This document shows, one piece after another, positions 31,837-58,726 of a stretch of DNA of 64,000 bases. The position numbers and the translations under genes are program-made. Source of the DNA: Pigmentibacter sp. JX0631. Lineage in GTDB: Bacteria; Bdellovibrionota_B; Oligoflexia; Silvanigrellales; Silvanigrellaceae. Every line of letters starts with the position of its first letter. Within the stretch, counting starts at the first letter, position 1. Where the stretch lies: contig NZ_CP123622.1 in the NCBI RefSeq assembly GCF_029873255.1, forward strand, positions 1,948,501 through 2,012,500. The letters run 5' to 3'. The notes beneath the pieces are model-generated. The model was not told the origin of the DNA. It ran no database searches and saw only the letters and a program-made list of their open reading frames with translations.

Positions 31837-32165
31837 ACAATAATCCTTATTTTAAGGGAAAAAGATGACTTTTAAAAATTTACACAGGGAACAGTACAAG
31901 GAATGAGATTGGACGAGAAACGTATACCACGTTTCATAGCTAAAACAAAATTAAAACATTAAATTTTGCTTTATAAATGATTTTATTTTGTTTTTTAAAT
32001 TGTTTTTCCTTGAAAGTGGAAATGAATAAACTGTTAAAAATATTTAGATAACCAAAAATAGTGAAACTAAGTAAAAATAATTTTACTTAGTTTTATTTAT
32101 AAATTGAATTTTTTTCATTTTATTTTTTTTGAAGGATAATTTAGTTCATTTCTAATTTTTAGAAT
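31837..32165. other. 329-base intergenic region
   Basis: No gene seen. A short inverted repeat GAAACG (31917-31922)/CGTTTC (31930-31935) lies upstream of the leftward secreted-protein gene and could be an operator, but it is only 6 bp. The rest is AT-rich without recognisable signals. Confidence 0.5.
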
Positions 32166-46520: not shown

Positions 46521-47861
46521 ATGATAAATATAAATAGAATAGTTATTTTTGGAGATAGTTTAAGTGATTTTAATAGAATGCAAGATAGCATTTTAGGAAA
46601 AGTAAGTAAAACTATTGGAAAAATTCCTCGTTCACCTTATCAAAGATTTACAAATGGATATGCTTGGGGTGACTGGTTAAGAACATATCTATTTAGAAGT
46701 AAAGTAAAAAGAATGAGTGGAATAGAATTAGTAAACGAAGCTTATTCGGTAAATTATATTCCAAAATACTTGCCACCTGATACAGAATTTATTAAATTTA
46801 AAATTGAAAATTATGCTGTAGGTGGAGCGACAGCTATAAATTTTAAAAAGGTAAAAAAAGGAAATTTAGTTTCAAATTTTCTTGACAATTTATCGTCTGA
46901 ATGTGATTTATTTCTTAAAGAAAATAGAATAAATTCTTCAAACGAAAATCAAAATCTATTAAATAATGATCTTTATATCATATGGGCTGGAGCTAATGAT
47001 TTTATTACGGCTGGATGGGATGATTTTGAATGCGCAAATCATGCAACAGAAGCTATTCTTGATTTAATAAAACGCTTAATGAATTATGGTGGGCAAAATT
47101 TCGTAATATTTAATTTACCATTTTTTACAGCTGCACCTAGATTTAGATTGAGTGAAGAGGAAAATAATGAGGTCAATAAAATACGTAATGTTCATTTAGA
47201 TGACTTAGTAAGATACTTTAATTTTTTGTTAAACGAAAAAGTTAACAGTTTTTTAAATCAAAATTTAAATAGCTCAAGAGATAATATAAATCTTGTAAGA
47301 AAATCAAGAGAAGCTCTAACTAGGGTTGCCAATGATCTTCCAGCTACTGTATCAAAATCTGTATATGCTGATCTTGCAAAACCATTAAATAATTTTAATT
47401 TAAATATTGAAATAAAAGATTTAAATTCAGTAATGATCAATTTAGATGAAAATAAATTTCAAAAACTTGAATTTGAAAATGAAGTTTATCCTACAAAAAT
47501 TACAGAATATAAAAAAGGAATGACTCAAATAGATAAATCTAGAATAAAAAATCGTGAGGAACAAAGGCTTTCAACTATGAATAGTAATACAATTTTAACG
47601 AGAACTTCGCAGATAATTTCCTCAAATAACTCGAACCCTTATATTGATGATCCTAAAAATTACAAAGAAAAATTTATAAGGAAAAACTCTTTGGGAGATA
47701 AAAATCCAAATGAAAAAAACTCTTTACTTAAAGTTTATGCTTATCATGATGATGTTCACCCAGGAAAAGAGATTCATAATTTACTAGGAATTATAATTTC
47801 TAAGATGTTAAATAAATCTTTTAATTTCTTTGCTCCTACAAGTAGATCATTTGAAATTTAA
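46521..47861 (+). CDS. SGNH/GDSL hydrolase (intact paralogue)
   Basis: 446 residues. Block I is GDSLSDFNRM (Ser13), then YQRFTNGYAWGDWL, block II-like YAVGGATAINF, block III GANDFIT near residue 157, and the catalytic Asp/His in HDDVHPGKEIH near 410-413. This is the layout of GDSL esterases, phospholipases and acyltransferases. Between blocks III and V is a long insert (about 230-395) that is Asn/Lys-rich. No signal peptide is visible, which is unusual for this group and could mean cytosolic action or a non-Sec route. Paralogue of the split gene at 22554-24125. The ribosome-binding site AAGGAG precedes the ATG. Confidence 0.88.
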   Translation: MININRIVIFGDSLSDFNRMQDSILGKVSKTIGKIPRSPYQRFTNGYAWGDWLRTYLFRSKVKRMSGIELVNEAYSVNYIPKYLPPDTEFIKFKIENYAVGGATAINFKKVKKGNLVSNFLDNLSSECDLFLKENRINSSNENQNLLNNDLYIIWAGANDFITAGWDDFECANHATEAILDLIKRLMNYGGQNFVIFNLPFFTAAPRFRLSEEENNEVNKIRNVHLDDLVRYFNFLLNEKVNSFLNQNLNSSRDNINLVRKSREALTRVANDLPATVSKSVYADLAKPLNNFNLNIEIKDLNSVMINLDENKFQKLEFENEVYPTKITEYKKGMTQIDKSRIKNREEQRLSTMNSNTILTRTSQIISSNNSNPYIDDPKNYKEKFIRKNSLGDKNPNEKNSLLKVYAYHDDVHPGKEIHNLLGIIISKMLNKSFNFFAPTSRSFEI

Positions 47862-47943: not shown

Positions 47944-48393
47944 TTAAGAATTTCTAATAAAATAAATTTGCTTTAAATTTTGATAATTGAAATTATTACA
48001 TTGCTGTTGAATCATTTCTATAACCCATTCGCGTGATATTTCTTCAGATAATGGAATTGCAAGATCTTTAATATTCTGTTTTTTACAATGTTGGAGAAGG
48101 GATTCAAATACAGGTTCTAAATTACTTATTTTTATTTTTTCTTGCCAATTATTTTTTACTGTCATTGTTAAAATGTGTTTCGTGCCAAATAATGCGGATA
48201 TACTATAATGATATGTATGATAAGGTTTTAATTGCTTTCTGATACAAGCCCTAGCATATTCACGGTAATAGTCAGGCCATACACGTTTCATTTTTTTGGT
48301 TAAAGGATCATGACTTAACCCAATACAGTTAATGGGGTGAATAACCGCTTCAGGATAGATATCAAATACATTTTCAATTGTTGTAAATATCAT
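47944..48393 (-). CDS. Macro-domain-like protein
   Basis: 149 residues. AVIHPINCIGLSHDPLTKKM, WPDYYREYARACIRKQLKP and later LAIPLSEEISREWV follow the order of macro domains of the DarG/ADP-ribose-processing type, with Asn in PINCIG corresponding to the catalytic/ligand Asn. The glycine-rich phosphate loop usually seen after IP (IPxLGxGxGGL) is replaced by SEEISREW, so hydrolase activity is doubtful and it may only bind ADP-ribose. It lies 12 bases after the membrane-protein gene, in the same operon. Antitoxin-like or phage-derived origin is possible. Confidence 0.7.
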   Translation of the reverse strand: MIFTTIENVFDIYPEAVIHPINCIGLSHDPLTKKMKRVWPDYYREYARACIRKQLKPYHTYHYSISALFGTKHILTMTVKNNWQEKIKISNLEPVFESLLQHCKKQNIKDLAIPLSEEISREWVIEMIQQQCNNFNYQNLKQIYFIRNS

Positions 48394-48405
48394 AACCCAC
48401 CAACA

Positions 48406-48858
48406 CTATTTATTAAGCATCCTTATAGACAGGTAGTTAAAGATTGTTGCAACCAATGCTGCGCTACTGCCTACCCATAAACCATAGCCTATTTTTATTT
48501 GATTTGTCGCTAAAGCAACAACACCAAACATTTCAACTGGCAATGTTTTAGCAATCGTAGTTTGATATGCTATACGGGCTAGTTGGTAGTAATAAATGAA
48601 AGTAATGCATAAAGAAAGTAAAAGTAAAAAATATAAGATAAATTTCTTTGCTTTTGCAGTCCTTCCTAAAATAAAAGACAATATAAGCATTACTAGAGAA
48701 AGTAGTAAGATGAGTAAGACGGAATTTCCTCCTACGTCTAATCCCGTCTTTGAGCCAACACCATAGGACATCCAGGGCAATAGAGGGCAAGTGAGCATCA
48801 ATAAACAAAGGATATTCAAGGTATAGTATTTTAACTTTTCTGCTTGATTCATAATCAT
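48406..48858 (-). CDS. Four-helix membrane protein behind a Fur-like box
   Basis: About 150 residues with four hydrophobic helices (around residues 11-30, 43-65, 71-92, 118-145). No family recognised. Polar residues between helices one and two include YGVGSKTGLDVGGNS. The gene has a Fur-like box 14 bases upstream of the start codon, so it may be iron-repressed together with the macro-domain gene downstream. An alternative start 6 bases downstream (ATG AAT) is possible. Confidence 0.65.
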   Translation of the reverse strand: MIMNQAEKLKYYTLNILCLLMLTCPLLPWMSYGVGSKTGLDVGGNSVLLILLLSLVMLILSFILGRTAKAKKFILYFLLLLSLCITFIYYYQLARIAYQTTIAKTLPVEMFGVVALATNQIKIGYGLWVGSSAALVATIFNYLSIRMLNK

Positions 48859-48890: not shown

Positions 48891-49187
48891 TTTATTATAG
48901 TATAATTTTAATATACTTAAAAATTTTTAATAATATCATTTTCTTTTTTACCAAGATTTTCTTAAGATGAAAATCTAAATAAAATTAAAATGCAATCTTA
49001 TTAGAATTTTATTGAAAGTATTTTAATTTTTTATTTTAAAAAATATTTTTAATATTTTCTTTTTTTAAATGATTTAGTTTTATTTTAAAGTAATTATCTA
49101 TATAAAAATTATTTTCATTCAATTAATTTAAAATTTAGATAGTTTAATTTATTGAAATAACTGAAAATTAATTTAATGAAAACTAAA

Positions 49188-49216
49188 TTGACAACAAAAT
49201 AATAAAAATATATTTT
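49188..49216 (+). promoter_or_regulatory. Consensus-like sigma-70 promoter
   Basis: TTGACA (49188-49193), a 17-base spacer, TATTTT (49211-49216). It reads into the 49253 gene, and its -10 lies inside the 47-bp palindrome. The rest of the intergenic region 48859-49187, apart from the Fur-like box, is AT-rich without other signals. Confidence 0.6.
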
Positions 49217-49254
49217 CCTAATTAATAACCCTTTTATTAGTTAGGAAAATATAT
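49208..49254. promoter_or_regulatory. 47-bp near-perfect palindrome from -10 box to start codon
   Basis: The arms are 49208-49228 and 49234-49254 (21 bases each, 20 complementary plus one T/G that would be a wobble in RNA), with the 5-base loop CCCTT. The right arm includes the Shine-Dalgarno TTAGGA and the first two bases of the ATG at 49253. It can act as an operator over the promoter. The predicted RNA start (about 49223) would retain only part of the left arm, so a translation-blocking hairpin would be shortened. Confidence 0.65.
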
Positions 49255-49999
49255 GGGAATTATGTTAAAAAAAAATGCGTTTGATTTTTCAACCTCTAGT
49301 TTACTAGAACAATATAAATCAGATAATGATTGGTTTGCAAACGGTTGGAATATTTTATCTAATGAAAAACATATATCAACAGCATATAACTTATATTCTT
49401 CATCTTATTCAACAAAGCATGAATTTTTGCTTTTAGGTGATAGTGATATTCGAACAAATCCTGAACTTGTGAATGACTTTGGAAAAACAACAGGAGCAAG
49501 AGCCAGTATAAATATGGCTGGTACTAATGGCGCTATTTTAGATGATATTTACTGGTCACCATTACTAAATGATTGTTTTATTTTAGGAGGTATTCATAGA
49601 AATTTAGACTTTTGTTATGCTGAGGTAAACTCAAATCGTATAAATTATCTTTCTAATCCAACATCATTTGACTATCTAAATACATGGATCGAGTTTTTTA
49701 ATAAGAATCCTGATATTTTATTTATAAAGAGTAATAGATTAAAAAAATTTAATCCTAGAGTATTTGCAAGAGAACTTCTTGGTTTAAAACTTTTTGGTTA
49801 TGAAACGGTTTTAGATAATCTTCAATTATCTTTCAAATGTATGGATAAAGATAAAGCTAATAGCGCAAGTTTTTCAGAATATATAAATTATTTAAATAAG
49901 TTTCCTTTTAATGTTAATTTAGAAGGTGTTAAAAAAGAAATATCTAAATTTTTGTTTGGTAATGAACAAGCGCTCCAAATGGATTTAAAATACAAATAA
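49253..49999 (+). CDS. Protein of unknown function under palindrome control
   Basis: 248 residues; family not recognised. No signal peptide or membrane segment. The central part FLLLGDSDIRTNPELVNDFGKTTGARASINMAGTNGAILDDIYWSP and CFILGGIHRNLDFC looks like a folded alpha/beta domain, followed by a helical C-terminus (ARELLGLKLFGYETV). It is not a GDSL enzyme: GDSD has no matching other blocks. The ATG at 49253 has AGGA 7 bases upstream; a second ATG at 49262 is possible. Single gene with its own strong promoter. Tight control suggests an inducible product. Confidence 0.65.
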   Translation: MGIMLKKNAFDFSTSSLLEQYKSDNDWFANGWNILSNEKHISTAYNLYSSSYSTKHEFLLLGDSDIRTNPELVNDFGKTTGARASINMAGTNGAILDDIYWSPLLNDCFILGGIHRNLDFCYAEVNSNRINYLSNPTSFDYLNTWIEFFNKNPDILFIKSNRLKKFNPRVFARELLGLKLFGYETVLDNLQLSFKCMDKDKANSASFSEYINYLNKFPFNVNLEGVKKEISKFLFGNEQALQMDLKYK

Positions 50000-50210
50000 A
50001 ATCATTCATATAAGAAAAAGTAGAAGTTTTTATGCTGAATTAATAAACAGAGCTTTGAATGCAATTTATTTAAGCTTTATTTTATTGAAATAATTAAAAA
50101 TAATAAATTTACATTTTCCCTTAAAAAAATTAAAATTCTTTTGCAAACAATTTTGTTTCTTTATTTTTTGCATCCAATTTTCAAATTAATTTCTAAGGGT
50201 CTAAAATAAA

Positions 50211-51290
50211 ATGAAAAAATTTAATTATTTAATTCCTGTTTTTTCTCTTTTAGCTATAAGCTGCGGAAAATCGAATAATGATTCTGATAAAAATAAGAGT
50301 GAATATACAGTTAATAATAAATATGAATTTAAAGATACTCCATCAAAAGGCTTTAATGATAGAATTAGTGCATTAGTATTTCATTATACTGCACTTGATC
50401 AAGATAAATCTTTGGAAACTCTTATTAAAGGTAACGTTAGCGCGCATTGGTTAATTCCTGAATCAGGAAATACTGTGTATAAATTGGTGAGCGAAGACAA
50501 ACGATCATACCATGCCGGGATCAGTTCTTGGAAACGAAGATCTGATCTCAATGATACTTCCGTTGGAATAGAAATAGTTAATTTGGGTTATACTTGTATT
50601 AATAACCCAAAGAGTGATCAATGCCCAAAGAATGAAAAAAAATGGTACAAATATACCGATGATCAAATATCTATGATTCTTAATTTAGCAAAGGATATTC
50701 AAAATCGATATAAAATTGATCCTTTATGCGTCGTTGGTCACTCAGATATAGCTGTAGGTAGAAAAGTTGATCCAGGTCCCTATTTCCCATGGCAACAATT
50801 AGCAAATGCTGGAGTTGGTGCTTGGGTTACTGAAGATGAAATTCAACAACAGCTTAAGTTAATTCAAAATAGTATTAGTGATGATATAACTACTTTTACT
50901 CTACAAACAAGATTATATGAATTTGGTTACGATATTCGGAATTCTAACTACACAGACAAATTTATAGATAATGAATTAACAAAAAAAATATTTCCTGAAT
51001 TTTCAGATACTGACAGTAAAATAAAGAATTGGAAAAGTATACCTTTTGATAATCTAGTTTTATTAAATAAATTAAATACATATTCTTCAAAAAATACTAC
51101 TGATGCAATTAATATAAAAGATATTTTTGATATTAATCTAACTATGAGTGCTATTGATGCTTTTGCAATGCACTTTTTACCAGAAGAATTTTTATCTAAT
51201 GAGGTTGCTGATAATAAAAAACTTCTTGCGACTATACAAGCTTTACTAATTAAATATCCTAATAGAGCCAAATCGGGGTGTGGGTACTAA
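50211..51290 (+). CDS. N-acetylmuramoyl-L-alanine amidase lipoprotein (AmiD-like)
   Basis: 359 residues. Lipobox AISC at about residues 15-18. The Amidase_2 domain spans about residues 50-200: zinc ligand His in LVFHYTALDQ, then SAHWLIPESGNTVYKLV, YHAGISSW, VGIEIVN with the catalytic Glu, and GHSDIAVGRKVDPGPYFPW with the last His and Asp. The C-terminal 130 residues include a peptidoglycan-binding-like start (LQTRLYEFGYDI). It resembles E. coli AmiD, an outer-membrane amidase that cleaves peptide from MurNAc in the periplasm during wall recycling. All metal and acid residues are in place. Monocistronic; start ATG preceded by a weak purine-rich site. Confidence 0.92.
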   Translation: MKKFNYLIPVFSLLAISCGKSNNDSDKNKSEYTVNNKYEFKDTPSKGFNDRISALVFHYTALDQDKSLETLIKGNVSAHWLIPESGNTVYKLVSEDKRSYHAGISSWKRRSDLNDTSVGIEIVNLGYTCINNPKSDQCPKNEKKWYKYTDDQISMILNLAKDIQNRYKIDPLCVVGHSDIAVGRKVDPGPYFPWQQLANAGVGAWVTEDEIQQQLKLIQNSISDDITTFTLQTRLYEFGYDIRNSNYTDKFIDNELTKKIFPEFSDTDSKIKNWKSIPFDNLVLLNKLNTYSSKNTTDAINIKDIFDINLTMSAIDAFAMHFLPEEFLSNEVADNKKLLATIQALLIKYPNRAKSGCGY

Positions 51291-58686: not shown

Positions 58687-58690
58687 TTTA

Positions 58691-58726
58691 AAAAAAAGCT
58701 GGTTTTGAAAACCAGCTTTTTTTTAT
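58691..58726. terminator. Bidirectional terminator between convergent genes
   Basis: AAAGCTGGTTTT and AAAACCAGCTTT form a 12-bp stem around a single G, bounded by A run on the left and T run on the right. It serves the rightward gene at 58147 and the leftward lipoprotein gene at 58740. Confidence 0.9.

Follow-up and report, generated by a model that had tools for sequence, protein, structure and literature searches.

What does a near-perfect palindrome do when it lies across the promoter, the ribosome-binding site and the start codon of a single gene whose product resembles no recognised family? The question is raised by a locus of Pigmentibacter sp. JX0631, analysed here within a 64-kb window (the whole stretch of DNA under analysis, 64,000 nucleotides). 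The elements at issue are these:

49188-49216, plus strand: predicted σ70-type promoter (TTGACA at 49188-49193, a 17-nt spacer, TATTTT at 49211-49216), a consensus match only
49208-49228, plus strand: left arm of the palindrome, ATATATTTTCCTAATTAATAA, overlapping the -10 hexamer
49234-49254, plus strand: right arm of the palindrome, TTATTAGTTAGGAAAATATAT, lying over the Shine-Dalgarno sequence AGGAAAA (49243-49249) and over the ATG at 49253 as far as its second base
49253-49999, plus strand: gene for a 248-residue protein whose family is uncharacterised and patchily distributed, with the motifs FG, GxILxxxxWxPLLND and RVxxRExxGLxxxGY

The palindrome is real and exceeds chance. Its two arms of 21 nt, complementary at 20 of 21 positions and separated by a 5-nt loop (CCCTT), make up 47 bases, and a wider, imperfect symmetry (33-nt arms, 82%) surrounds them. 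The preliminary description had given these dimensions and had the palindrome reach from the -10 box over the Shine-Dalgarno sequence to the start codon; the coordinates bear out both. When palindromes are scored at +1 per match and -3 per mismatch, it ranks second among the short-loop palindromes of the window, behind a terminator-like hairpin at 58689-58725. Its score was reached in none of 20 shuffles of the whole window and in 0.03% of 3000 shuffles (about 1 in 3000) of the 441-bp, 86% AT leader.

Other inverted repeats are present in the window. The top-ranked one, at 58689-58725, is an 18-bp perfect palindrome with A and T runs alongside, and is probably a bidirectional terminator between convergent ORFs. 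A perfect 13-bp repeat, AAACTAAGTAAAA/TTTTACTTAGTTT, lies between two minus-strand ORFs at 32064-32093. Within the same AT-rich leader, just upstream of the promoter, a second inverted repeat (49112-49129 and 49165-49182; 18 nt, 94%) has its arms 35 nt apart. Several familiar elements were considered for the palindrome and set aside: no intrinsic terminator was detected, the leader matched no known leader RNA or riboswitch in Rfam at E values up to 5, and the core boxes of an integron attC site do not fit, as judged by eye.

The promoter had been described as consensus-like. It is the only site in the window with an exact TTGACA and a matching -10 sequence, a combination found in 1.2% of shuffled leaders; a general consensus scan of the window, on the other hand, is no richer than shuffles (12 sites found versus 12.9 expected). 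The TTGACA-17-TATTTT arrangement predicts a transcription start near 49222, inside the left arm. The exact translation start is uncertain, because the start codons of homologues align with a second ATG at 49262; a well-placed Shine-Dalgarno sequence is present at 49253 only.

Because almost the entire 248-residue ORF aligns with its relatives, it is judged to be a real gene. On plasmids, a protein-level search (tblastn) retrieved Roseibium aggregatum homologues with 27-28% identity over 96% of the query (E 9e-21 to 3e-19), together with shorter matches in Rahnella, Serratia and Streptomyces. An alignment-based scan across 84,980 species genomes picked out 18 loci, among them Roseibium, Stappia, Labrenzia, Aliikangiella, Thalassolituus, Microbulbifer, Fangia, Streptomyces and a Bacteroidetes MAG; the weakest, in a Fimbriimonadaceae MAG, is doubtful. 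The family thus found in Alpha- and Gammaproteobacteria, Streptomyces and the Bacteroidetes MAG, in part on plasmids, is about 25-37% identical to the window protein. The family alignment (A3) comprises 17 sequences, and its invariant columns include F76, G77, L96, W101, N106, D107, V170, R173, E174, G177, L178 and Y183. The window protein carries all three conserved motifs.

Relatives in Roseibium (e.g. WP_229006314.1), Stappia, Microbulbifer, Aliikangiella, Thalassolituus and Streptomyces and on Serratia and Rahnella plasmids are homologous to it nearly throughout and share its conserved residues; like the window gene, theirs are stand-alone and sometimes plasmid-borne genes for a "hypothetical protein". 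The window protein differs from them in being divergent and in lacking an insert around the NGIQD motif. Branches in the family tree are long, and the branching order around the window protein is not settled. Thus the picture of an unknown, isolated gene needed revision: the product has no recognised family, but the gene is a member of a scattered one, and the homologues on plasmids and at the 18 genomic loci rule out a lone orphan.

Nothing credible came up when the window protein was compared with Pfam, NCBIfam, PHROGs and PDB sequences. Profiles from Pfam, NCBIfam, PHROGs and PADLOC were neither significant for it nor consistent across the 17 relatives, so that the claim of a protein outside the recognised families stands even when all members are scanned. 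Structure prediction, which the preliminary description had proposed, was useless without an alignment (pLDDT 34), while AlphaFold2 with the family alignment returned a fairly confident model (pLDDT 77, pTM 0.81). A Foldseek search of this model against PDB and viral structures found no match at E <= 0.001, and all TM-scores were low. The product probably works alone in the cytoplasm and has a compact alpha/beta fold.

Three assignments for the gene were tried and rejected. A phage gene is contradicted by the lack of relatives in phage records and viral contigs, where the one phage match had an E of 0.7. A known defence protein does not fit, given that PADLOC matches were inconsistent, one member matching PbeC at 0.0039. 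As for a toxin-antitoxin or effector-immunity pair, no partner gene recurs in the neighbourhoods of the relatives, and the Rahnella copy near tssH is a single case. That copy, on a Rahnella plasmid (L060 4914-5662), is a disrupted homologue; about 0.6 kb away is a hypothetical gene adjoining the type VI secretion cluster gene tssH. The family gene seems dispensable, since the Rahnella copies appear to be broken in two and the Bacteroidetes copy is also split. Several Roseibium and Stappia homologues (L020, L022, L029 near 5000) share one site beside a gene for what we take, from its sequence, to be a YidC-like membrane insertase of 606 residues, which suggests long residence at that site.

In JX0631 the gene stands alone between two neighbours, on a segment that its closest relative lacks:

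48906-50056, no strand: segment without a counterpart in the closest relative, about 1.15 kb, extent approximate
48406-48858, minus strand: gene for a small hydrophobic protein, divergent, the left neighbour
50211-51290, plus strand: N-acetylmuramoyl-L-alanine amidase gene, the right neighbour

The closest relative (G005) keeps both flanking genes, at 96% and 87% identity, with 225 bp between them versus 1352 bp in the window. Homology to the relative is regained near 48906 at the left end and near 50056 at the right; these borders are fuzzy by tens of bases in this AT-rich sequence. At meaningful scores, no copy of the gene turned up in the 7 remaining genomes of the genus or in any other genome sampled from the class. 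With an empty, collinear site in the nearest relative and no copy in the sampled relatives, the simplest reading is that the segment was probably acquired by the JX0631 lineage, that is, a gain here rather than a loss in the relative. The gene is close in composition to the amidase gene (G+C 26.5% versus 29.4%; third position 14.5% versus 16.7%), so any acquisition left no clear compositional mark. No flanking direct or inverted repeats of at least 8 bp were found at the borders, no target-site duplication, and no integrase, transposase or regulator gene on the segment. Farther to the left, 47944-48393 (minus strand) encodes a macro-domain protein resembling the DarG antitoxin (PADLOC DarG E 1.4e-15; Pfam Macro 1.9e-5), and 46521-47861 (plus strand) a GDSL lipase/acylhydrolase-like protein (Pfam Lipase_GDSL 1.6e-14).

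As proposed earlier, then, the palindrome lies where expression could be controlled, over the -10 sequence, the Shine-Dalgarno sequence and the start codon. The reading that we tentatively prefer is that it acts in cis at the RNA level, insulating an acquired gene from stray transcription so that it would be expressed from its own promoter only. The single gene, with its promoter, would have arrived on the segment of about 1.15 kb. A transcript begun upstream, in the leader or beyond, would form a hairpin of 21 bp in which the Shine-Dalgarno sequence and the start codon are buried, and would not be translated. One begun at the gene's own promoter would form no hairpin, because its start falls inside the left arm, and would be translated. 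Since only the upstream-begun transcripts would fold and stay silent, the gene would be insulated.

Multiple results are consistent with this fold-back. In the sense RNA all 21 positions pair, the sole arm mismatch being a G-U there; by itself, this is weak evidence for an RNA hairpin. The computed hairpin has a free energy of -20.1 kcal/mol (z -8.3). As far as computed folding goes, it hides the ribosome-binding site of transcripts begun outside: the Shine-Dalgarno sequence is 0.1-0.3% unpaired in transcripts starting at or before 49208, and about 70% unpaired in those starting at 49220-49226, the start region expected of the predicted promoter. The uniqueness of the site, the background level of its half-sites, the solitary ORF without a regulator on its segment, the empty site in the nearest relative, the lack of the gene in 57 other genomes of the class and the family members on plasmids of distant bacteria also favour fold-back. 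Against it, the promoter is a consensus match, the upstream neighbour is divergent, which makes strong read-through from that side less than obvious, and the segment bears neither a mobility gene nor a target-site duplication. In addition, a single sequence affords no covariation, and the hairpin is not kept in the relatives of the protein.

The chief rival, possible but less probable, is a DNA operator, on which a dimeric or tetrameric repressor would block RNA polymerase at the -10 sequence and leave upon a signal. The long symmetric arms, placed over the -10 region and the start point of the window's only promoter-like site with an exact TTGACA, speak for it. The protein itself belongs to no recognised DNA-binding family, and since the segment encodes no regulator, the repressor would have to be encoded elsewhere or be the gene product. 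A search of the genome and the genus, allowing up to 3 mismatches, found no second copy, which speaks against the operator of a regulon; half-sites occur at the level of a reversed-pattern control and of shuffles. The preliminary description had named loss of the palindrome in relatives that keep the gene as a ground for refutation. No comparable palindrome was found upstream of the family gene at any of about 19 loci with scorable upstream DNA (loci without a usable start were left out). This agrees with that ground and speaks against a palindrome conserved across the family, but all are distant relatives, so that loss in close ones does not follow. Its lack of conservation and of a second copy weakens the operator reading. 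Thus the earlier proposal that a blocked promoter gives tight, inducible expression is not supported, given the lack of a second site, the background level of half-sites, and the absence of a regulator on the segment and of a comparable site at the relatives. A predicted RNA hairpin over the ribosome-binding site fits the same anatomy without need for an unseen protein.

An unlikely explanation is that the palindrome has no regulatory role and is a by-product, for example of template switching in replication that turned an AT-rich quasi-palindrome into a near-perfect one, or is left over from acquisition. Its single, non-conserved copy, the very AT-rich surroundings and the wider imperfect symmetry would all be expected; its rarity even at the local composition and its exact placement over the -10 sequence, the Shine-Dalgarno sequence and the start codon would not. 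Least probable is a switch in the leader of a main transcript with its start upstream of 49208: a thermosensor, a leader responding to a ligand or a protein, or, as in IS200 tnpA, a device that keeps translation weak. Although every upstream-begun transcript folds in this way, the stem is AU-rich and IS200 offers a precedent, Rfam gave no match, the best promoter match is at the left arm rather than upstream, and 21 continuous pairs (-20 kcal/mol) exceed the usual thermosensor stems.

If the fold-back reading is true, acquired cargo genes can carry the type of protection against stray transcription that transposase genes have, which would help to explain how foreign genes survive insertion in AT-rich, promoter-like DNA. 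Fold-back insulators have so far been described for transposase genes. In its fullest form, in which a transposon-style insulator protects a horizontally moving gene that is not a transposase and whose product represents an undescribed family with a new fold, the proposal is doubtful. Current family libraries lack the protein family, which extends over several phyla, is plasmid-borne in some cases and has a predicted fold unmatched among solved structures; this makes it a sensible choice for a first characterisation.

Among known systems, repressor operators that overlap a -10 box are alike in position and symmetry, but the palindrome here is single, with no linked regulator and no half-site above background elsewhere. 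The leader of the IS200 tnpA gene contains an inverted repeat whose stem-loop hides the ribosome-binding site (PMC12594629; Beuzon et al. 1999), and 5' elements silence insertion sequence genes that have inserted in transcribed regions (PMC2965389, which cites Davis, Simons and Kleckner on Tn10). The window resembles IS200 in having an inverted repeat in the 5' leader with a stem over the ribosome-binding site; it differs in that the IS200 hairpin lies within the transposase's own transcript; the window leader matches no Rfam family. The window protein matched none of the transposase families, and the segment has no defined element ends. In 1985, Davis, Simons and Kleckner reportedly described how the IS10 (Tn10) transposase is protected from external promoters by fold-back of its mRNA. 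Unlike IS10, the window gene encodes no transposase and has neither insertion sequence ends nor a target duplication, and its fold-back is a computed one. Yet as in IS10, an inverted repeat lies over the promoter, here a predicted one, and the ribosome-binding site, an arrangement in which transcripts from outside would fold and the gene's own transcript would escape.
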